Source: Erysipelotrichia bacterium (GTDB lineage: Bacteria; Bacillota_I; Bacilli_A; Erysipelotrichales; Erysipelotrichaceae). From it: 10,219 nt of DNA. The translations under genes were made by a program, and so were the position numbers. The notes under the pieces were generated by a model. It was given only the letters and a program-made list of their open reading frames with translations, made no database searches and was not told the DNA's origin. Of this stretch, positions 411 through 10,219 are shown in pieces (positions within the stretch are counted from its first letter, which is position 1; each line of letters starts with the position of its first letter). Location: NCBI GenBank assembly GCA_009929095.1, contig SABF01000041.1, forward strand, positions 1-10,219, written 5' to 3'.

Positions 411-1637
411 TCAACGGTCCTCCTTCCTATCTGTACAGAAAGGACAGATGACACCCTCACTCTGCTGTCTGTTCTGTAAGAAGTCATCCGTGAAGATGCA
501 TTCCTCCCAATAATCATCTTGGTCATCCAGTCTCGCAGTCCAGCGTCTGAACTGACGCGGAGTCTGTGCTTCTTTTACCTCTTCTACTTCAGGATAAGAT
601 TCGATCAGTTTTCGCAGCGCATCAATGTCACATACTTCTTCATATGCCATCATGATCATGTCATGATAACTGTCCGTAAATTCAAAGAAGTTGTTGAATT
701 CTTCATGTGCACACAGTTCATCAGCAATCTCTGCTTTGCGCCATGCCGGAACATTCTGGAACAGTCTCACCAGGAAACTGTGATTTGTCAGTCCCAGTTT
801 CATATAGTTCAGATAAATCATCGGAATTACGAAACGCCCATCATCTACGATATGTGCAAGATCATCATGCATAGTCTTTCCATCCAGACCGGAAAGTCTT
901 TGGAGAACATCATAATCAAACAGATCCGCTCCGCTCTCTGTGTTGTTCAGAGCTTCTATGATTGCCATATCCCTGGCATCTACTTCTTTTGTCATAGCCA
1001 GCAGTTTTTCCTGAGCATCCTTTGACCATGCATAGTGCCGGAACACTGATGGATCGCTGTCGAACATATTTACACTGCTCTCACGCAGGTCTCTGCGTAT
1101 CGGGCAAAGATGCACATACTCAATGTTGGGATTGCTCTTAAGAGGATCAATGATAGATACAAGCAGATTATCCAGTACACGCATATGATTTCCGCAATAG
1201 TAATCAAAGTCTCCATTGCATGCATAGCCAGTACAGATCTCGTCTTTGTACTGAATCCAGTGCGTAACTTCTTCACGCTGTTCCGGTGTGATATCCTTCT
1301 TCAGTTTCACAACCCAGTAGTACAGTCCAAACCCATAGACTGAAACTGCAGAATTCTTTACAAGCATGAGAATTCGTTTATCGTACATTCTCTTAATTCT
1401 TTCTGCGATTTCCTTCTGCTTGATGCCTGTTTTCTCTTCCACCTTTTTCAGATTGAATACTTCCGGGTGTGTCTGGTAGAAACTCTTGGCGACATTAAAT
1501 CCCGCAAACTTTGCGCTGTCATTGCCTACAATTCCCGGTTCCAGCATTCCCAATCCATGTGGTGCAAAGAAATACTTCTTCATCCATTCCTGACGTTCGT
1601 CTGTTCCCAGCAGATAATTCTTCTTGTTGCTACTCAT
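411..1637 (-). CDS. Double Lrp/AsnC-like regulator-type protein (tandem winged-helix + RAM-like halves, C-terminal CxxC-type tail)
   Basis: 408 residues, more than twice a normal Lrp/AsnC protein (about 150). Residues ~60-94 look like an Lrp-type helix-turn-helix (LKKVEEKTGIKQKEIAERIKRM), followed by a beta-alpha-beta-beta-alpha-beta RAM-like stretch at ~102-185 (YGFGLYYWVVKL...NIEYVHLCPIRRDL). A second, more divergent winged-helix-like segment lies at ~222-272 (DARDMAIIEAL...LQRLSGLDGKTMHDDLAHIVDDGRFV), then a second RAM-like region at ~285-355. The tail carries CPFC at 398-401, a possible metal or redox site. The start is supported by a Shine-Dalgarno (GGAAGGAGA) about 11 bases upstream. 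The gene is followed after 2 bases by an acyl-CoA synthetase gene, so it may sense an acid, amino acid or CoA ester relevant to that enzyme (inference). The domain call is from motif reading only; I do not recognise a named family. A non-DNA-binding ligand sensor remains possible. Confidence 0.6.
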   Translation of the reverse strand: MSSNKKNYLLGTDERQEWMKKYFFAPHGLGMLEPGIVGNDSAKFAGFNVAKSFYQTHPEVFNLKKVEEKTGIKQKEIAERIKRMYDKRILMLVKNSAVSVYGFGLYYWVVKLKKDITPEQREEVTHWIQYKDEICTGYACNGDFDYYCGNHMRVLDNLLVSIIDPLKSNPNIEYVHLCPIRRDLRESSVNMFDSDPSVFRHYAWSKDAQEKLLAMTKEVDARDMAIIEALNNTESGADLFDYDVLQRLSGLDGKTMHDDLAHIVDDGRFVIPMIYLNYMKLGLTNHSFLVRLFQNVPAWRKAEIADELCAHEEFNNFFEFTDSYHDMIMMAYEEVCDIDALRKLIESYPEVEEVKEAQTPRQFRRWTARLDDQDDYWEECIFTDDFLQNRQQSEGVICPFCTDRKEDR

Positions 1638-1714
1638 AAAAATTCAGTCTCCTTCCTGTGTCTGCTGCGCCATGATTGCGCGTTGATACATCTGTAAATC
1701 TATAACTTAATCAT

Positions 1715-1744
1715 AGTATATCTGCCGATGAAAAACATATCCAA
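1715..1744 (-). promoter_or_regulatory. Candidate sigma-A promoter of the double-Lrp / acyl-CoA synthetase unit
   Basis: On the minus strand, TTGGAT (1744-1739) and TATACT (1720-1715) are separated by 18 bases. The -10 has 5 of 6 consensus bases and the -35 is moderate. It lies about 78 bases upstream of the start codon, in an AT-rich stretch that also holds a second possible -10 (TATGAT just downstream). It is the best promoter-like pair seen between this gene and the divergent DUF5684-type gene. Confidence 0.45.
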
Positions 1745-2163
1745 ATATCATTATTTGCCGTATTCCATCAATATCTTCACCTGATCATCGTGGCAATTCC
1801 GGGAATACTGCAGTTAACGCATCTGCTGTACCAGAACAAGAAACAATCAAAGGAAACAAAATACTGTTTCCTAATAAAACTTTTAGTCTGTCTGCGCATT
1901 TTGGCATAGCAAATCAGAGAGTTCATTCTCACTCCTCAGGTAAGCAGAATTCACAATCCCCCATTAGCATGCACAAATTATTTTTCTCATTAGCTCAATC
2001 TTAAGAAGACTGCAGACAAATTATGAGCACTAATAGTGAAAAGGGATAAAATAGACACATTGATATTTTGCCAAGTTTTCACAAACGCAAGGTTTGATAC
2101 GGTAAAATGCAGTTTGGTCATTGTTTAGCGTGACCCGTGATATTTATCGAAAGGGGATAAAAT
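1745..2163. other. Intergenic region between divergent transcription units
   Basis: I see no convincing coding region on either strand. An 8-bp perfect inverted repeat (AGGAAACA / TGTTTCCT, 1851-1858 and 1865-1872, 6-base loop) is followed by AATAAAACTTTT. It is too AT-rich and lacks a proper T-tract, so it is at best a weak terminator. For the plus-strand gene, TTCACA (2078-2083) and TAAAAT (2103-2108) are each one base from consensus, but the 19-base spacing is long. This is a low-confidence promoter. Confidence 0.5.
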
Positions 2164-2164
2164 A
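2038..2164 (+). repeat. 16-bp direct repeat, one copy forming the ribosome binding site of the DUF5684-type gene
   Basis: The segments at 2038-2053 and 2149-2164 match at 15 of 16 positions (GAAAAGGGATAAAATA and GAAAGGGGATAAAATA), offset by 111 bases. The second copy contains the Shine-Dalgarno AAGGGG and ends on the first base of the proposed ATT start. Downstream of each copy is a loosely similar ACA-TTR stretch (GACACATTGAT and GATACATTAAC), suggesting a small, decayed duplication of the gene's 5' end rather than chance. Confidence 0.5.
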
Positions 2165-2166
2165 TT
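2151..2166 (+). promoter_or_regulatory. Ribosome binding site with non-canonical ATT start codon
   Basis: AAGGGG (2151-2156) lies 7 bases before ATT (2164-2166). An in-frame TAA at 2158-2160 blocks any start farther upstream. The next in-frame codon of ATG, GTG or TTG type is deep inside the protein (ATG at 2515). ATT is therefore the only start that keeps the whole domain and has a correctly spaced Shine-Dalgarno. Confidence 0.6.
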
Positions 2167-2694
2167 ACGGATACATTAACAGACATCAGCACCATCATCG
2201 CCGCAGCAGGCATTGCTATCCTGGCTTTTTTACTTATCTGGTATGTTCTGAGTGTTATCGCCATTTTCCAGGAATTCAAAAAGGCCGGAGAAAAAGGCTG
2301 GAAGGCAATCATTCCTCTATATCGTCAGTTCATTCTTTTCAAGATCGTCTGGAAGGATGAAAAGGTTAAGTTCATCTGGCTCATTTCATTCCTATGCCAG
2401 ATCATTCTTGGCCCTCTCAGTATTCAGCTTGCTCTTGCCAACGGCAACAATGCAGAGACAGTTGCTGATTACTTCGGGAAAATCTTCTCAGCAATAGCTC
2501 ACGGCAACATTCTTATGTATGTAAGTTCCCTGGGTGGAATCATTGCAGCAGCTCTCAACATGATCCGCAACTATCAGCAGTCCAAAGCTTTCGGACATGC
2601 AGTCGGCTATACAATCGGTCTGATCACATTGCCAACCATCTTCAACCTGATTCTTGGTTTGGGAAAATCTGCATACGCAGGCCCGCAGGACTAA
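2164..2694 (+). CDS. DUF5684-type small multispanning membrane protein, AUU start
   Basis: 176 residues when initiated at ATT (read as Met: MTDTLTDISTII...). There are four hydrophobic segments: ~8-35, ~70-91, ~116-134 and ~148-166. Between the first two is a conserved-looking cytoplasmic loop, KKAGEKGWKAIIPLYRQ (39-55), and near the C-terminus is FNLILGLGKSAYAGPQ (160-175). These two motifs are what I associate with DUF5684 proteins, sometimes annotated as signal-peptidase-like although they carry no catalytic Ser/Lys dyad. I see none here. Function is unknown; a membrane-associated accessory role is all that can be said. The gene stands alone: the neighbour upstream is divergent, and a strong terminator follows 39 bases after the stop. 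The reading frame is uninterrupted to the TAA, so it is not an obvious pseudogene. If the ATT is a sequencing error or a recent ATG mutation, the product is unchanged. Confidence 0.8.
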   Translation: MTDTLTDISTIIAAAGIAILAFLLIWYVLSVIAIFQEFKKAGEKGWKAIIPLYRQFILFKIVWKDEKVKFIWLISFLCQIILGPLSIQLALANGNNAETVADYFGKIFSAIAHGNILMYVSSLGGIIAAALNMIRNYQQSKAFGHAVGYTIGLITLPTIFNLILGLGKSAYAGPQD

Positions 2695-2732
2695 TTACTG
2701 TTCAGCAAGTCTTTTTCACCAATCATCGAAGC

Positions 2733-2770
2733 ATCCGCTGCCTTATGACAGCGGATTTTTTATTATTTTC
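2733..2770 (+). terminator. Intrinsic terminator after the DUF5684-type gene
   Basis: A perfect 8-bp stem (ATCCGCTG 2733-2740, CAGCGGAT 2749-2756) with an 8-base loop runs directly into TTTTTATTATTTT. The GC-rich stem and U-tract make it a textbook Rho-independent terminator. Confidence 0.9.
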
Positions 2771-3356
2771 ATTTCATCCCTGCATCATGACACGTGAATG
2801 ATTCTTTGACCATTTATAGATATTCTCTGCAGGCTAGTATCTCCTGGCATACATCTTCAGTATTCATCATTTTACAGTGATCCGGCTGATTTCCGGCATT
2901 GCTAATTATTGTGTTATACCCGAAAGCAGGCAGCCGATTCCCAGCTGCAGCATGCCTTTGCCGGATTGTTCCATCGTCATGTTTCTGTTTCTGTCATTTT
3001 CGGTCAGACAGTAAATGAAGTTATAAAGGAAGTTTCATTGGTATTATTAGCTGAAACGGCGATACATGTAAAAATCTCTTAGTATATTTTCACCTTAAGT
3101 TAATTGCCTGGGGTGTCATGACATCAGCATTTCAGAATTGCCATAATCAATTCTGGATAAATGCAAATGTATCCTTCTGTTTACGCGCATTAGCTGTGCT
3201 TGTCTTCATGCTGAATTTACAGCCTTATGCGGCTATGTTTACTTTTATGTTTTTGTCAGCAAAGGCGCTGATGCTGATTCAATTTTCAGGAAACTAATTA
3301 TATCAGTCATGTGACGCTTCAGTTCTATCATGATTTTCACCCATCCGATACATTGA
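2771..3356. other. Gene-poor, apparently decayed stretch
   Basis: No recognisable gene. The longest open stretch noticed is a 59-codon ATG-initiated frame at 3118-3297 (plus). Its second half is hydrophobic (CLRALAVLVFMLNLQPYAAMF...), but it lacks a good Shine-Dalgarno and has no recognised family; it could be a gene fragment. On the minus strand, short pieces around 2850-2990 read like fragments of a small membrane protein but are broken by stops. The stretch looks like degenerate DNA upstream of the damaged PAP2 gene. Confidence 0.4.
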
Positions 3357-3998
3357 GTGCAGGCAATCGGTCTAAATGCTTCATTCATTGGTCTGACCAA
3401 ATTCAACGGATTCTTCTATGAATTAACCTGAACACAAACGCCGATTTACACAACCTCCGATTTGCTTGAACTGATTCCGATATTGATGTCTCCTGGATTT
3501 GCTGTACTTGGACTTATTCAGTTTATAAAAACAAAGCGTCTTTTCAAGGTTGATCAAGATATCTTGGTTCTTGGTGGATTTTATATCCTCGTGTTTGCCT
3601 CGTACATTCTGTTTGAAGTATTCGCAGTTAATTACCGTCCATTGCTGAGCGGCGGAAAAGTAGAGACTTCCTATCCTTCATCGACAACACTGTTAGTCTT
3701 ATGTGTCATATCTGCAGCTGCAATGCAGTTTAACGAACGCACACAGAATCCACATTTGAAAAGTGCCGTAAAAATATCTATAGCTGCATTTTCTGCTTTT
3801 ATGGTTATTGGCAGATTGGCTTCAGAATTTCATTGGTTCACAGATATTATTGACAGTGTACTTTTTAGTGCAAGCTTTGTGATGGTTTGCATTTCAATAA
3901 AACTGGAAAAAGCATTTTCTGCGAGGGCCAGGCTGAACAGAACACCACTTTCATTGCTGTCAAAGAAAGCCATAGTCTGCAATCCACAAATATCATAA
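3357..3998 (+). pseudogene. PAP2-superfamily phosphatase, damaged (in-frame TGA, N-terminus lost)
   Basis: PAP2 proteins are membrane phosphatases acting on lipid phosphates such as undecaprenyl diphosphate. The intact 3' part (178 codons from a TTG at 3462) has the family's order: FIKTKRLFKVDQDILVLGGFYILV, NYRP (57-60; phosphate-binding Arg), SYPSSTT (70-76; position of the PSGH motif), and GRLASEFHWFTD (117-128; Arg, catalytic-type His124, Asp128), with membrane helices between. The same frame continues upstream through an in-frame TGA (3429-3431) into VQAIGLNASFIGLTKFNGFFYELT (3357-3428), the expected extracellular N-terminal region, then hits another TGA at 3354. The first membrane helix is not found. 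The PSGH histidine is Thr here, and the last ~30 residues look atypical. No Shine-Dalgarno precedes the TTG. Most likely a decaying gene; a shortened, still expressed version is less likely. Confidence 0.65.
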
Positions 3999-4221: not shown

Positions 4222-4392
4222 TATACACAGGCCGGTTTTTACCTAATACTCATATACACAAATAGCTTTTTTGATCAGCATTCAATAATATTTGTATGTG
4301 TATATACAGTTAGAGTAAACATTGCAGACAAAGTGTATAATTTCATCATATTAGCATGTTCAATGAGCGTTTGACATTAATAGTATATACAC
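4222..4392. promoter_or_regulatory. Cluster of five TATACAC heptamers upstream of the LevR-like regulator (candidate operators)
   Basis: TATACAC occurs at 4222-4228, 4253-4259 and 4386-4392 on the plus strand, and at 4298-4304 and 4333-4339 on the minus strand. The copy at 4333-4339 overlaps a TATAAT (4336-4341), and the copy at 4386-4392 fills the end of the spacer of the proposed promoter. I found a sixth copy only at 9244-9250, upstream of the GH1 gene. Such clustering in under 200 bases is more than AT-richness would easily give, but part of it could reflect -10-like sequence. Confidence 0.5.
4252..4305. repeat. Imperfect inverted repeat in the regulator's upstream region
   Basis: The left arm ATATACACAAATA (4252-4264) is the reverse complement of TATTTG (4289-4294) plus TGTATAT (4299-4305), with four extra bases (TATG) splitting the right arm. 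Each arm contains one TATACAC heptamer. It could be a dimer or looping operator, or a cruciform-prone site. Confidence 0.45.
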
Positions 4393-4398
4393 TACTAT
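4371..4398 (+). promoter_or_regulatory. Candidate sigma-A promoter of the regulator-PTS operon
   Basis: A perfect -35 TTGACA (4371-4376) is followed after 16 bases by TACTAT (4393-4398; 4 of 6 consensus bases). Transcription would begin around 4405, which places the upstream ATG at 4397 inside the -10 and supports the ATG at 4433 as the true start. A second TATAAT at 4336-4341 lacks a matching -35. Confidence 0.55.
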
Positions 4399-4432: not shown

Positions 4433-7072
4433 ATGCCTACAGCAAAAGAAAGAATCTATCAATTAATACTGGAATCGGGAAAAGAGGGGAAACAGACACA
4501 GAGTATTGCCGATACGCTTCAGATTAAGCGCCCAAATGTCAGCTCTATTCTCAATCAGCTGACAAACGAAGGAAAGATTATCAAAACAAAGACAAGACCG
4601 GTTGTATACATGGTTGCTGAAAATGAGCCAATTACATCCGACACAAGCTGCTTCCATACCATGATCGGATATGATGGCAGCCTCCAGAAAGCTGTGCAGA
4701 TAGCAAAAGCTGCAATTCTGTATCCGCAGGGAAGCCTGCACACAATTATTGTTGCAGAACCCGGAGCAGGAACAACCTATCTTGTATCACAGATGGTTCA
4801 GTTTGCCAGAGATGTCAAAGTTCTTGGAGCAGACGCGTCATTTGTTAAGCTGAACTGCAGTCACTACAGTGACAATCCCAAAAAAATTCATCATGAATTG
4901 TTTGGCAGGACAACCGAGTCATTCCGCAATCGATTTGAAGAAGCAAAGAATGGAGTGCTGTTTATTGATAAAGCCGAATTGCTGGACTGTACAGATCAGA
5001 GTGCCATTCTGCAGTATGCAGAGACAGGGAATGTAACTTATGACCAGGATGATGAATCTGATCTGCATGTGCCAAAACTGCTTCTGATCATAGCATGCAG
5101 TGTTTCGGCAAATGCGCAGGTTCTGAACAACTTTACAAGCAAAATTCCCATGCAGATTACTTTGCCTTCGCTCAGCCAGCGGCCAAAGGATGAACGCATG
5201 CAGCTGATCGACCGATTCTTATCAATCGAATCTACAAGGGCAAAAATGAAGATCGAGGTCGATGATGAAACTGTGCGTGCCCTTCTTCTATATGCATGCA
5301 ATGTGAACGTCAAGCAGCTGAACAGTGATATAAAAGCCGGATGCGCTAACGCCTACGTAAGAACATTTACGAGTCACGAAAAAAATATCCGGATATATTT
5401 AAAAGATTTTCCAAATTATGTTCAGAAAGGTCTGCTGAGTTACAAACAGTACCAGCGCGAAGTTGATTCGATTGTGAAGACAAATGCCATATATGTGTTC
5501 GACAGCAAATCAACACTGCAGAAGTACACAAATTTCCGTCCGGTAAGCGATGTCTATCTTGGCATTCAGCAGAGATTCCATGAACTGGAAGTACAGGGAT
5601 TTCAACAGGAAGACATTACCAGAATCGTGAATGCATATGTTGATAATCAGTTTAGATCGTATGTAAACACACTGACAAAACAGATTATCAATACGGATCA
5701 ACTGTCAAAACTGGTTGACGGAAAGATCATCACATTTGTCAGAGAGTTTATCGAACAATGTGAAGACAGATTCTCAAAGCACTATCCGCCAAGCGTATTT
5801 TACGGCCTATGTCTGCATATCAATGCTCTGCTCAACACGAAGCAGGAAAAGCATGCAGCAACCAGGGAACAGACTGAAAATGCAATAAAGAATCACAACG
5901 ATGAATACTCTATGTGTTTATCTCTGAGCGATCGACTCAGAAAGGAGTATAAGCTGGAACTCAGCATTGATGACATTGTCATCATGACAATGTTTCTGAC
6001 AAATATTCAGCAAGACGTTGGTGATCCTCATCCACAGCTATTGATCTGCATGCATGGAAACAGTACGGCAAGCAGTCTGACTCAGGTTATCAACGATCTG
6101 TGTAAGGCAGATAACATCTATGCATATGATATGCCGCTCACGCAGGACACAAGAGAAGCATATGATCAGGTCAAGGCATTGGTTCAGAAGATTGATCAGG
6201 GAGCAGGCGTTCTTGTCATATATGATATGGGATCGTTCAGAACTATGTTTCAAAGCATATCAGACGATACGGGCATCTGCATTCGGATGCTGAATATTCC
6301 GGTGACACTGCTTGGGGTTGACATTGCCAGGAAATGCACAATGGAGACAGATATAGAGAACATATATCACTCTTCCATCAGCGAATTAGCCAGCTATAAG
6401 GAAAGTTATTCAGAGAAGCCGCATATTTTCATTACCTTATGCAACACAGGAGAAGGCGGCGCTCAGGAGCTAAGTGATTATATTCAAAAATATTCAAAAC
6501 TTGGTTATCGAACAATTCCACTGTCCATCAGCGATCGAAGGACACTGATCAGAGAAGTAGAAACGCTGAAAGAATCCAATCAGATTGACGCATTTGTAGG
6601 AACATATAACCCGCGTCTATTTGGAATTCGGTTTGTATCAATTCAATCAGTATTCGAATGTGAAACAGATCAGCTGGATCGAATTCTGCAGGGAAAACCG
6701 GTATCAGGCAAAGAAGATGTATTCAACAAAATGTATCAGTACCTTGACGAAAGCCTCAGCCATGTACCTTCCGGAAAAATGAAGCAGGAATTGCCGCCGG
6801 TTATCATAACGATGGATGAGTACTTTGGCCTGAATGATGAACAGAAGATCGGTTTATCAATGCACATTGCATGTGTGATTGACCGGCTCCTTGACCATCA
6901 GCCAGTGTCACATACAGCTGATACGGAAAGATTGCAAAACAAATATCCAGAACAATTCAAAACAGTTGCCCGATGCATGAAAAGAATCGAAAAAAAATTC
7001 AGCATTATCATTCCGGACAATGAAATTGCAATCATATTGGAAATCATCGGATTCGGAATCAAGGAGGGATAG
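4433..7072 (+). CDS. LevR-like PTS-regulated transcriptional regulator with degenerate AAA+ domain (wHTH-AAA*-PRD-EIIA-EIIB-PRD)
   Basis: 879 residues. Order: winged helix (4-60, AKERIYQLILES...SIADTLQIKRPNVSSILNQL); AAA+-like region (~75-300); PRD1 (~430-530, His462 in YGLCLHINALL); EIIA-Man-like domain (535-650, phospho-His541 in MHGNSTASS); EIIB-Gat-like domain (664-745, Cys670 in TLCNTGEG); PRD2 (~795-875, His811 in SMHIACVIDR). This is the LevR/ManR architecture, in which PTS phosphorylation of PRD and EII-like sites sets activity. The AAA+ part is broken: Walker A reads EPGAGTTYL (109-117) with Thr for the Lys, Walker B reads LFIDK (176-180) with Lys for the Glu, and the GAFTGA loop is missing between LFG and RFEEA (157-171). 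It should neither hydrolyse ATP nor engage sigma-54. I chose the ATG at 4433 over 4397 because GGAAAGAG precedes it and the -10 covers 4397. It is followed by PTS genes with a 3-base gap and probably controls them. Confidence 0.9.
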   Translation: MPTAKERIYQLILESGKEGKQTQSIADTLQIKRPNVSSILNQLTNEGKIIKTKTRPVVYMVAENEPITSDTSCFHTMIGYDGSLQKAVQIAKAAILYPQGSLHTIIVAEPGAGTTYLVSQMVQFARDVKVLGADASFVKLNCSHYSDNPKKIHHELFGRTTESFRNRFEEAKNGVLFIDKAELLDCTDQSAILQYAETGNVTYDQDDESDLHVPKLLLIIACSVSANAQVLNNFTSKIPMQITLPSLSQRPKDERMQLIDRFLSIESTRAKMKIEVDDETVRALLLYACNVNVKQLNSDIKAGCANAYVRTFTSHEKNIRIYLKDFPNYVQKGLLSYKQYQREVDSIVKTNAIYVFDSKSTLQKYTNFRPVSDVYLGIQQRFHELEVQGFQQEDITRIVNAYVDNQFRSYVNTLTKQIINTDQLSKLVDGKIITFVREFIEQCEDRFSKHYPPSVFYGLCLHINALLNTKQEKHAATREQTENAIKNHNDEYSMCLSLSDRLRKEYKLELSIDDIVIMTMFLTNIQQDVGDPHPQLLICMHGNSTASSLTQVINDLCKADNIYAYDMPLTQDTREAYDQVKALVQKIDQGAGVLVIYDMGSFRTMFQSISDDTGICIRMLNIPVTLLGVDIARKCTMETDIENIYHSSISELASYKESYSEKPHIFITLCNTGEGGAQELSDYIQKYSKLGYRTIPLSISDRRTLIREVETLKESNQIDAFVGTYNPRLFGIRFVSIQSVFECETDQLDRILQGKPVSGKEDVFNKMYQYLDESLSHVPSGKMKQELPPVIITMDEYFGLNDEQKIGLSMHIACVIDRLLDHQPVSHTADTERLQNKYPEQFKTVARCMKRIEKKFSIIIPDNEIAIILEIIGFGIKEG

Positions 7073-7075
7073 GAA

Positions 7076-7393
7076 ATGGACAACACCAAAGAGCAGGAAA
7101 TATCAATGACCATTATCGCCAATGCCGGTGAGGCAAGAGGACTTGCATTTGAAGCTTTACGGACAGTCCGTGACAGACACGATTATCCGCGGGCAGCTGA
7201 ACTGCTGAAGGAAGCGGACAGCTACAGTCTGATCGCACACCAGGCACAGACAGATCTGCTTACTGCTACAGCAAATAATGAAGATATCAATGTTGATGTA
7301 CTGCTGGTTCATTCACAGGATCATCTGATGACAGCTATGCTGGCAATTGATCTGATCCGTGAACTGGTTGAATGCTATAAAGACATAAAATAA
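7076..7393 (+). CDS. celC: PTS Lac-family EIIA component (cellobiose/beta-glucoside type)
   Basis: 105 residues, the full usual length of the trimeric LacF/ChbA-type EIIA, which passes phosphate from HPr to EIIB in the cytoplasm. Motifs seen: IIANAGEARGLAFEAL (13-28), LIAHQAQTDLL (52-62), and VHSQDHLMTAML (78-89) holding the expected phospho-acceptor His79 and the metal-binding Asp82 that holds the trimer. The start is set by AAGGAGGG inside the end of the regulator gene, 3 bases before which that gene stops, so the two are translationally coupled. The symbol follows cel nomenclature for this subunit type; the actual sugar (cellobiose, chitobiose, other beta-glucoside) is not shown by the sequence. 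Confidence 0.95.
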   Translation: MDNTKEQEISMTIIANAGEARGLAFEALRTVRDRHDYPRAAELLKEADSYSLIAHQAQTDLLTATANNEDINVDVLLVHSQDHLMTAMLAIDLIRELVECYKDIK

Positions 7394-7452: not shown

Positions 7453-7758
7453 ATGAAAATGCTACTGATTTGCGCAGGAGGTATGAGTACGAGCATGCTG
7501 GTTAAAAAACTTGAAAAGTATGCAGCGACTCACGGTATTGAAGATTTCAAGTGTGAAGCACATGGGGCAATGGATCTTCCGGAGATTTACAAAAACTGGG
7601 ACGTTGTTCTGTATGGCCCGCAGGTATCAAATCGAGCAGAATTCTTTCGTGAAACAGTTGGTGCTGATTTCCCACTTGGGAAGATCGAGCCCACTGATTA
7701 TGCAATCGGCAATGCAGACAAGATTTTCGCTCTAGCAAACAAGCTGCTAAGCAAATAA
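7453..7758 (+). CDS. celA: PTS Lac-family EIIB component (cellobiose/beta-glucoside type)
   Basis: 101 residues, normal for the small, phosphatase-fold EIIB of the Lac family, a cytoplasmic protein that takes phosphate from EIIA and donates it to the incoming sugar. The N-terminal motif LLICAGGMSTSMLVKKLE (4-21) has the catalytic Cys7 and the P-loop following it. Further family features are CEAHGAMDL (33-41), WDVVLYGPQVS (49-59) and a C-terminal helix. A Shine-Dalgarno GGGAGA lies about 9 bases before the ATG. It sits 59 bases after the EIIA gene and 25 bases before the EIIC gene in the same operon. Confidence 0.95.
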   Translation: MKMLLICAGGMSTSMLVKKLEKYAATHGIEDFKCEAHGAMDLPEIYKNWDVVLYGPQVSNRAEFFRETVGADFPLGKIEPTDYAIGNADKIFALANKLLSK

Positions 7759-7783: not shown

Positions 7784-9097
7784 ATGGATAATTTTATGAA
7801 TTCGGGCTTTATGAAAGCCTTGAACAGCGCCGGGCAGAAGATCGGTGCGAACAAAGCCGTCAACTCCATTCAGTCAGCACTGATGGGATCAATGGGCATC
7901 ATCATGGTAGGAGCTATTTTCCAGATTTGCGCAGTTGTTCCTGTAAACCTAGGATGGATGACTGCCGAAAGCAACATCTATGCAGCGTTCTATGGAGTAT
8001 ACAACCTAACAATGAACCTGCTGTCAGTATGGTTCGTATATCAGCTTGGCTATAACTATTCCAAGGCTCTGGGATTGAAGCCGATGACAGGTGCAATCAA
8101 TGCAACAATCTGTTTCCTGCTCACCGCTACGGGTGCTTCGTTTGGCGCCGACTTCCTGACCGGCTCCATGGCATCATTAAACACATCATATCTTGGCGGA
8201 ACTGGACTGTTTGTTGCCATCTTGGTTGGTCTGGTTACTGTGGGTATCTATAATGTGTGTGTAAAACATAATATTGTCATCAAGATGCCGGACGTTGTTC
8301 CGCCATTCCTCGCAGATGGCTTCTCATCCATCATCCCTCTGTTCCTCTCAGTTGTTCTCTGGCTGGCTGTAACAACAGGATGCATCGCTGCTACAGGTGT
8401 TGGTTTCTCCAGTCTGTTTATAGGCCTGGTATCTACACCAATGAGTTATCTGACTGGTTTCTGGGGCATGTTAGTTCTTGGCCTTCTGTGCGGCATCATG
8501 TGGATCTTCGGCATCCATGGCACGCTGATGGTTTATGTAGCAATCATGCCAACTATGTTATCAGCAATACAGGCCAATGCAGCAGCATATCAGTCTGGCG
8601 GAGTTGCCGCACTGCAGTATTATCCAGTTCTATTGTTTGGATTGGTTGCATGTGCAGGCGGCACGGGAAATACAATCGGCCTGGCAATTCTTGGTGCATT
8701 TAAAGCTAAGTCTGAACAGCTGAAAGCTGTCGGAAAAGCAGCTCTTATTCCAGGCATCTTCAATATCAATGAACCTATTACATTCGGATATCCAGTCATG
8801 TATAATCCGATCATGGCAATTCCTTATCTTCTCTGCATTATCGTTCCGATCATCTTAGGACACATTGCTTACTCTACTGGCTGGATGATTCCTGCTTATA
8901 TCACTGTTGGTTCTGTTATGCCAATCGGTGTTGCGGAATATCTTGGTACTCTGACATTTGAAAAACCGTTATTTGCATTAGCGATGTGTGTAATTACAAC
9001 ATTAATCTACTATCCTTTCTTTAAAGCATATGATAAACAGCTGTACGCAAAAGAACAGGCAGACAAAGCGGCTGAAGCAGCAAAAGAAATAAAATAA
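7784..9097 (+). CDS. celB: PTS Lac-family EIIC permease (cellobiose/chitobiose/beta-glucoside type)
   Basis: 437 residues, full length for ChbC/CelB-type EIIC, the membrane channel that transports the disaccharide for phosphorylation by EIIB. About ten hydrophobic segments are visible. Family motifs: KMPDVVPPFLADGFSSIIP (167-185), WIFGIHG (240-246, His245) and FNINEPITFGYPVMYNP (326-342, Glu330). By homology with Bacillus ChbC, His245 and Glu330 should contact the sugar 6-OH and act in the transfer step. A strong Shine-Dalgarno AAAGGAGA (7767-7774) precedes the ATG. The C-terminal tail is charged and Ala/Lys-rich (KEQADKAAEAAKEIK). The gene ends 29 bases before a terminator stem, closing the first transcription unit. 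Confidence 0.96.
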   Translation: MDNFMNSGFMKALNSAGQKIGANKAVNSIQSALMGSMGIIMVGAIFQICAVVPVNLGWMTAESNIYAAFYGVYNLTMNLLSVWFVYQLGYNYSKALGLKPMTGAINATICFLLTATGASFGADFLTGSMASLNTSYLGGTGLFVAILVGLVTVGIYNVCVKHNIVIKMPDVVPPFLADGFSSIIPLFLSVVLWLAVTTGCIAATGVGFSSLFIGLVSTPMSYLTGFWGMLVLGLLCGIMWIFGIHGTLMVYVAIMPTMLSAIQANAAAYQSGGVAALQYYPVLLFGLVACAGGTGNTIGLAILGAFKAKSEQLKAVGKAALIPGIFNINEPITFGYPVMYNPIMAIPYLLCIIVPIILGHIAYSTGWMIPAYITVGSVMPIGVAEYLGTLTFEKPLFALAMCVITTLIYYPFFKAYDKQLYAKEQADKAAEAAKEIK

Positions 9098-9126
9098 AAT
9101 CTCTTCGTTACGCATCGATGCAATCT

Positions 9127-9161
9127 GGGGGAAGAGTCAGGGCTCTCCCCCATCTCTTTAT
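9127..9161 (+). terminator. Intrinsic terminator after the EIIC gene
   Basis: The stem GGGGGAAGAG (9127-9136) and CTCTCCCCC (9143-9151), with one bulged A and a 6-base loop, is followed by a modest T-rich tail (ATCTCTTTATT). The GC-rich stem makes termination likely, though the weak U-tract could allow read-through into the GH1 gene. A perfect 10-bp palindrome GCATCGATGC lies just upstream (9112-9121). Confidence 0.75.
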
Positions 9162-9243: not shown

Positions 9244-9332
9244 TATACACTGATAGAAACAAAAATGATCTGATTCAATTTATAATAATTCGCAATGATT
9301 CATTTTCCAACTGTATAGTCATTGCAAATAAT
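9244..9332 (+). promoter_or_regulatory. Upstream regulatory region of the GH1 gene: TATACAC site, TATAAT and a 14-bp inverted repeat
   Basis: TATACAC (9244-9250) is followed by a perfect TATAAT (9281-9286) that has no recognisable -35, as expected of an activator-dependent promoter. If that TATAAT is the -10, the heptamer would sit near -45. An inverted repeat with arms at 9285-9298 (ATAATTCGCAATGA) and 9319-9332 (TCATTGCAAATAAT) pairs at 12 of 14 positions with a 20-base spacer. Its left arm touches the TATAAT, so it could be a repressor site or an RNA hairpin in the leader. Confidence 0.5.

Positions 9333-9350: not shown

Positions 9351-10219
<869 letters not shown>

Follow-up and report, generated by a model that had tools for sequence, protein, structure and literature searches.

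Can a transcriptional regulator built like a sigma-54 activator work without the parts needed to contact sigma-54 and hydrolyze ATP? The question arises from a 10,219-nucleotide stretch of DNA from an Erysipelotrichia bacterium (GenBank assembly GCA_009929095.1, contig SABF01000041.1; the window), which encodes an 879-residue protein resembling the phosphotransferase system (PTS) regulators LevR and CelR. LevR-like proteins have been described as sigma-54 activators on the basis of their central domain (PMC10864463, accessible part). In the window protein this AAA+ domain is degenerate, and the original prediction read the protein as uncoupled from sigma-54 and acting at sigma-A promoters, with the AAA+ fold serving as a scaffold. 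That reading is supported by the absence of perfect −24/−12 elements, by a separate operator at predicted sigma-A promoters, and by the lack of detectable rpoN in most genomes carrying such proteins. We consider it likely that the protein is a PTS-phosphorylation-controlled regulator of sigma-A promoters that acts through arrays of the heptamer GTGTATA, its AAA+ domain being a scaffold. The features of the regulator gene are as follows.

4433..7072, forward strand: LevR/CelR-like PTS regulator, 879 aa, intact open reading frame (ORF)
4757..4777, forward strand: degenerate Walker A motif EPGAGTT, residues 109 to 115, with Thr114 replacing Lys
4904..4909, forward strand: junction at which the GAFTGA loop is missing, residues 158 and 159
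4961..4972, forward strand: degenerate Walker B motif FIDK, residues 177 to 180, with Lys180 replacing Glu

The protein has the domain order of LevR-like PTS regulation domain (PRD) regulators: a winged helix (residues ~1 to 62), the degenerate AAA+ domain (~72 to 335), PRD1 (His462), EIIA-Man (His541), an EIIB-like domain (Cys670), and PRD2 (His811). A phosphorylatable residue is predicted from the alignment in all four of the last-named domains, and the four residues were invariant across 82 aligned sequences, so the phosphorylation modules are kept, as had been claimed. Paired by domain, they correspond to the phosphorylation residues of LevR (His-506, His-585, Cys-718, and His-869) and to those of CelR (PMC10864463, accessible part). 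According to the same source, the domain order, the N-terminal DNA-binding domain, and the conserved phosphorylatable His and Cys residues are those of the LevR/ManR/CelR sigma-54 enhancer-binding proteins, and CelR likewise serves a cellobiose PTS operon. Unlike these proteins, the window regulator lacks the attributes of a sigma-54 enhancer-binding protein (the GAFTGA loop, the Walker A Lys and Walker B Glu, and a −24/−12 element at the target operon), and the operator and the sigma-A promoter predicted for it differ from theirs. Pfam recognized the PRD in two stretches, EIIA-man, and, weakly, Sigma54_activat (33.8 bits against a cut-off of 20.2); the winged helix, which is TrmB-like, scored under its cut-off. 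The closest NCBIfam match was DagR (NF047795), at 253.5 bits over two stretches (best, 69 to 872), yet this is far under the curated cut-off of 1400 bits for membership. A second in-frame ATG lies upstream at 4397, but 4433 is the better start because the upstream codon overlaps the predicted −10 box (4393 to 4398).

When the protein was aligned with a canonical LevR-like paralogue from its own genome, the core GAFTGA columns were gaps, so that it has an AAA+ fold without GAFTGA, a feature of the TyrR kind. For the fold, the comparison covers the matches listed, and further families may match too. Canonical relatives have Lys at the position of Thr114 and Glu at that of Lys180 in 100% of cases, and all three losses that had been reported were thus borne out. 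Ser236-Lys237 replaces an arginine pair that is present before residue 239 in 99% of canonical members, the first Arg of which is kept by half of the relatives that lack the Walker A Lys. At residue 294 (5312 to 5314), which we take to be the sensor II position, Lys accounts for 91% of those Lys-less relatives and canonical members have Gly; contact with nucleotide or phosphate through this Lys is possible. The description of the window regulator as ATPase-dead is a prediction from these motifs.

The gene is intact and, as originally judged, unlikely to be a pseudogene. Its ORF is uninterrupted, and the same motif losses are shared by P0002, an intact protein 90% identical to it, and by the orthologous locus L039 from another assembly. 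The ratio of nonsynonymous to synonymous substitutions (dN/dS) against L039 was 0.043 for the AAA+ domain, with dS at 1.31 and near saturation, which argues against sequencing error or decay. Per domain the ratio ran from 0.03 to 0.10, the AAA+ and winged-helix domains both being under purifying selection. The L039 orthologue (~90% identical; same assembly as G174 contig C260) is itself in two frames, broken near residue 452 (~5230 to 5360), which is either a real break or an assembly error.

The losses extend well beyond these two loci. We examined the best 120 of 291 homologues of the window protein, a set that includes the protein itself, and the best 120 of 1762 homologues of the canonical paralogue; the motif count excludes P0001, P0121, and six locus ORFs, which are duplicates or truncated copies. 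GAFTGA and the Walker B Glu were both absent from 119/119 other listed homologues of the window protein. Of the three losses, those of the loop and the Glu are thus conserved throughout, and the Walker A Lys is kept in 16/119. None of the 119 combined GKT, DE, and GAFTGA, a finding that would have told against the original reading. The paralogue's 120 listed homologues carry GAFTGA or a close variant, nine of them with GAYTSA- or GAFTDA-like loops and one truncated before Walker A. Loop, Lys, and Glu occurred together in 153 sequences, and no loop-bearing sequence was without Lys or Glu. For comparison, 490 enhancer-binding proteins were counted in sigma-54-bearing Clostridiales, 355 with an exact and 100 with a variant GAFTGA (PMC6615313, accessible part).

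In a tree built from the C-terminal part, with the AAA+ domain left out, the GAFTGA-less relatives of the window protein formed one clade of 133 members (support 1.0), and of 159 (support 1.0) once new loci were added. Both Lys and Glu are missing from 128 of the 159; 28 keep Lys without Glu, and three are truncated in the AAA+ region. Most of the deep branches surrounding the majority that lacks Lys are made up of Lys keepers, so the loop and Glu were likely lost before Lys. More than one loss of Lys is likely, given an early-branching group of 10 without it (node support 0.34) and a few other such members scattered among the keepers. There are two further GAFTGA-less lineages, one clearly outside the clade and the other (nine members) weakly placed. 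Outside the clade we noted GAFTGA-less LevR-like proteins at L037, L053 to L056, L060, L064, L077, L082, L084, L087, L090, L092, L096, and L174 to L176. Those at L096 and L174 to L176 adjoin mannose-type PTS genes, no rpoN was detected in their genomes, and they are possibly parallel departures from sigma-54.

The PTS neighbors differ as well. Among the canonical loci inspected, 15/17 have a mannose-type PTS and 2/17 have no recognized PTS gene in the available stretch; clade loci have a lactose/cellobiose (Lac/Cel)-family PTS gene downstream in 33/39 cases and a match to a glycoside hydrolase family 1 (GH1) gene in 33/39, by BLAST against the window genes. In Clostridium thermobutyricum, a canonical regulator (L172) with a one-mismatch −24/−12 element lies beside Lac/Cel IIB and IIA genes; L040, a clade member, comes from this genome too.

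We then turned to sigma-54 itself. As the original prediction had stated for the window, no −24/−12 element with zero or one mismatch was found there; two with two mismatches were found, against 7.3 expected by chance. Perfect elements occurred in 0/39 clade loci (452 kb) versus 17/35 canonical, GAFTGA-bearing loci (241 kb), and elements within one mismatch in 7/39 versus 28/35 (p = 1e-7); L052 and L061, which are one gene, both stand among these 35. The gene rpoN, called as a PF04552 match above cut-off, was found in 11/36 genomes carrying the clade and not in 25/36, 18 of which are at least 90% complete. Where the relatives had been checked and shown to carry GAFTGA or a close variant, it was found in 22/23 genomes, the exception being the window's own genome, G000. 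(G178 and G174 are one assembly, counted once.) All 11 rpoN-bearing carriers also hold a LevR-like protein of the GAFTGA type or closely similar, the motif having been checked in six (G083, G091, G096, G179, G210, and G250) and inferred in the other five from at least 38% identity to the paralogue, partly from fragments. At E <= 1e-60, G000 is alone among the 25 carriers lacking rpoN in having such a paralogue match; the matches in G134, G201, G033, and G028 are themselves GAFTGA-less.

The G000 assembly is 74.6% complete, and rpoN was not found in it. Its canonical paralogue (L041, 3443 to 6178, reverse strand, contig C5) has the motifs GETGTGKS, GAYTGA, and FLDE, adjoins a mannose-type PTS, and has a perfect −24/−12 element, TGGCACGTTTTTTGCT, at 3395 to 3410 (reverse strand) in the gap separating it from the next gene; G174, the genome of the ~90%-identical orthologue, has rpoN. 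For these reasons rpoN is probably present in the species and merely missing from the assembly. The uncoupling would then be specific to the window regulator, and the idea that it was caused by a loss of rpoN in the species was rejected.

If the regulator has left sigma-54, which DNA might it recognize? The sites and promoter proposed for the window are listed here.

4222..4228, reverse strand: putative operator half-site GTGTATA
4253..4259, reverse strand: putative operator half-site GTGTATA
4298..4307, forward strand: putative operator GTGTATATAC
4333..4339, forward strand: putative operator half-site GTGTATA, at offset −60 from the predicted −10 box
4371..4398, forward strand: predicted sigma-A promoter TTGACA-16-TACTAT of the regulator-PTS operon
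4383..4392, reverse strand: putative operator GTGTATATAC in the predicted promoter spacer, its 7-mer at offset −7
9244..9250, reverse strand: single GTGTATA half-site upstream of the GH1 gene

The window holds six GTGTATA sites, versus a mean of 0.59 in shuffles. In 13 discovery loci, GTGTATA/TATACAC occurred 17 times in 4.3 kb before regulators versus 25 times in 138 kb elsewhere (22-fold), and 16 of those 25 lay within 300 bp before a PTS gene. The enrichment recurred in 26 loci not used for motif discovery, with 34 sites in 8.2 kb before regulators versus 50 in 301 kb (25-fold; p = 2.5e-31), and within the latter DNA 31 sites fell in 31 kb of other intergenic sequence versus 19 in 272 kb of coding sequence (14-fold). 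A site preceded the regulator in 16/26 test loci, only a PTS gene in 6/26, and neither in 4/26. With all 39 loci pooled, 82 sites lay in 13.6 kb of target intergenic DNA versus 10 in the remaining 34.2 kb between genes; dinucleotide shuffling (200 rounds) gave a mean of 3.0 and a maximum of 8. Before the regulators of 33 canonical loci, with L052 standing alone for its gene, there was a single site (0.97-fold). Nor is the motif a general feature of Lac/Cel PTS loci, an idea we rejected on finding three sites in 7.3 kb of noncoding DNA at 21 other such loci of the family; this control includes L190 (G083), L191 (G061), and L200 (G096) from carrier genomes. L183, which lies outside the control, adjoins a second regulator fragment.

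Two longer sequences were less informative. GTATATAC occurs in the window and in L039 twice each, both copies within ~135 bp before the regulator. Among the 13 loci it precedes the regulator only in these two and L013, with one more copy elsewhere in L049, and we rejected it as a clade-wide operator; GTGTATA is the widely shared sequence. GTGTATATAC has 11 sites across G000 versus five for a reversed control, and is therefore too common to define a regulon; 7/9 of the sites outside the window lie inside ORFs. Beyond the window, this genome has intergenic copies at L166 and L167, near position 1500.

The position of the sites tracked the transcription unit in the 33/39 loci with a recognized downstream PTS gene, the other six being left out. 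At loci of the operon type, sites preceded the regulator in 12/13 and lay between regulator and PTS genes in 0/13; at those of the separate type, they preceded the PTS gene in 14/20. (L144, counted as separate because its PTS ORF overlaps the end of the regulator, belongs to the operon class.) The arrays were also phased with predicted −35 and −10 elements. Relative to the first position of the best −10 prediction, site offsets recurred at about −7, −60, −80, −131, −141, and −173. At the 14 loci whose promoters scored 10 or higher, offsets coincided across loci (within 1 bp) 43 times, against a null of 10.5 (standard deviation, 3.2) that reached this number in 0/5000 shifts; 25 loci gave 79 against 29.3 expected. 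A measure of 10.5-bp phase was 0.49 versus 0.15 for the 14 loci and 0.34 versus 0.13 for the 25 (p = 0.001). When 24 promoters were aligned by their −10 boxes, the mean match to the heptamer was highest at −59 (4.12 of 7), then at −3 (4.04), inside the −10 box, and at −79 (4.00); near-perfect sites (at least 6 of 7 bases) occurred at −7 in 7/24 promoters and at −59 and −60 in six each. Offsets −60, −80, and −141 are free of any circularity with the −10 search. In 5/24 aligned promoters (L010, L049, L137, L138, and L140), the −35 element is overlapped by TGAAAGCGCTTTGAC(A/T), which resembles a catabolite-responsive element (cre).

The sequence comparisons show that the motifs are lost across the clade, that the operator is enriched and keeps recurrent distances from predicted promoters, that perfect −24/−12 elements are absent, and how rpoN is distributed. 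On this basis, the explanation we favor would run as follows. An old clade of LevR/CelR-type PRD regulators would have departed from sigma-54. The winged helix would bind GTGTATA arrays at sigma-A promoters driving a PTS for beta-glucosides (IIA-IIB-IIC, as a rule accompanied by GH1) and, in many cases, the regulator gene itself, and sugar supply would be sensed through PTS phosphorylation of His462, His541, Cys670, and His811. The AAA+ fold, which we infer no longer hydrolyzes ATP, would oligomerize and keep several subunits together across sites on one face of the helix. The recurrent sites at −60 and −80 would fit contact with RNA polymerase and thus activation; the site at −7, beside the −10 box at some loci including the window, would fit repression or autoregulation. 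Supposing that it does act with sigma-A, we lean modestly toward an activator over a repressor.

A broader proposal is nearly in balance, tilting slightly against. Here an ancient and widespread clade would have turned a sigma-54 ATPase machine into a hydrolysis-free oligomer hub with a phosphorylation-driven grip on GTGTATA arrays in helical phase, from which it would activate sigma-A beta-glucoside operons in a class-I-like manner while also repressing its own expression. If true, the sigma factor was switched stepwise, with regulator, operator, and promoter changing together, and other LevR-like lineages beside mannose PTS genes reached the same end in parallel. Because the clade retains intermediates that lost the loop and Glu and kept Lys, the order of such a switch can be studied.

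TyrR, DhaR, HupR, Caulobacter NtrC, and VpsR have other sensor and DNA-binding domains, and the window regulator differs from these GAFTGA-less relatives of enhancer-binding proteins in its PTS-phosphorylation sensor and N-terminal winged helix. PRD activators of the MtlR/LicR type act at sigma-A promoters and have PRD-based PTS control in common with it. The accessible part of PMC10864463 describes the latter as having another order of PTS domains and no central domain like that of enhancer-binding proteins, and as preferring the fructose/mannitol, lactose/cellobiose, and galactitol PTS families. TyrR, DhaR, and HupR are sigma-54-independent AAA+ relatives from other families (PMC3162934, accessible part), so the kind is already known. 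What is new is a clade of PTS/PRD regulators with a predicted operator and promoter arrangement of its own, a large group of LevR architecture without the sigma-54 contact loop, the catalytic Glu, or the sigma-54 promoter type and mostly without the ATP-binding Lys. A search of titles and the beginnings of abstracts, with subscription literature mostly outside its scope, found no paper on GAFTGA-less LevR-like proteins or a GTGTATA operator. Pfam calls a sigma-54 interaction domain in most listed clade members and some sources name members LevR, so their promoters would be mispredicted. The predicted operator makes the regulon directly testable.

Several observations weigh against this explanation. 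The heptamer was initially chosen by eye among the 13 discovery loci. Neither the regulator nor a PTS gene is preceded by a site at test loci L143 (truncated), L147, L148, and L151 or at discovery loci L015 and L020, and the sole site at L040 precedes a 101-aa ORF unrecognized as a PTS gene. Sites also precede the regulator in 9/20 separate-type loci. The arrays vary, the window having further sites at −95, −140, and −171. The promoters are predictions and the related genomes are not independent, and offsets −7 and −3 are partly circular because the −10 search is drawn to operator sites containing TATA. Finally, nucleotide binding could persist, because 28/159 members keep the Walker A Lys and 91% of the Lys-less ones have a Lys at the sensor II position.

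The strongest competitor differs from the favored explanation only in sign. A pure repressor of a strong sigma-A promoter would occupy the operator in the −10/spacer region, loop to upstream sites, and be released upon a PTS sugar signal. The GTGTATATAC in the window's promoter spacer, next to a consensus TTGACA −35 element, suggests as much, −7 is the single position richest in near-perfect sites, and the paired GTATATAC copies are spaced by 83 bp in the window and by 80 bp in L039, distances that would be compatible with looping. However, −59 and −60 together have 12 near-perfect sites in the 24 promoters, the mean match at −59 exceeds those at −3 and −79, the −7 offset shares the circularity just described, and the LevR/CelR relatives that have been studied are activators (PMC10864463, accessible part). 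We regard pure repression as possible, though the less probable sign.

It is unlikely that GTGTATA is instead bound by another regulator of beta-glucoside operons, the clade protein acting elsewhere or being a vestige. Binding by the clade regulator is itself a prediction, and the heptamer is also found at L184 (G044) and L187 (G066), two Lac/Cel PTS loci that lie on a contig other than the regulator's, in fragmented assemblies where linkage is possible. But G044 and G066 each carry a clade regulator, the sites precede the regulator gene itself and are rare at GAFTGA loci and at other Lac/Cel PTS loci, and purifying selection on the AAA+ and winged-helix domains speaks against a vestige.

We give still less credence to the idea that the window regulator aids sigma-54 transcription in trans, for example in mixed oligomers with its GAYTGA paralogue. 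The perfect −24/−12 element of that paralogue in the same genome would allow it, and GAFTGA-less Caulobacter NtrC alleles affected sigma-54 genes (PMC12421884, accessible part), but rpoN went undetected in 25/36 carrier genomes and no clade locus has a perfect element. One-off decay or a sequencing error in a canonical sigma-54 activator, to which the frameshifted L039/G174 orthologue might point, was rejected as having almost no chance of being right, given that GAFTGA is missing from every other listed homologue, that dN/dS is low in each domain, and that both the window ORF and P0002 are intact.

Downstream of the regulator lie the genes of the putative target operon.

7076..7393, forward strand: PTS EIIA, lactose/cellobiose family, starting 3 bp past the regulator stop
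7453..7758, forward strand: PTS EIIB, lactose/cellobiose family
7784..9097, forward strand: PTS EIIC, lactose/cellobiose family
9363..10217, forward strand: GH1 family, best NCBIfam matches 6-phospho-beta-glucosidase, running off the window

A G+C-rich hairpin after the EIIC gene (9126 to 9152; −19.4 kcal/mol with 61 nt folded, z = −1.76) failed a terminator scan, and an Rfam scan of the window gave no match. Upstream, a 408-aa protein encoded at 411 to 1637 (reverse strand) had no Pfam match at E 0.1. The ~1.8 kb from 1640 to 3460 holds short ORFs, none of at least 100 aa, and possibly represents decayed genes.

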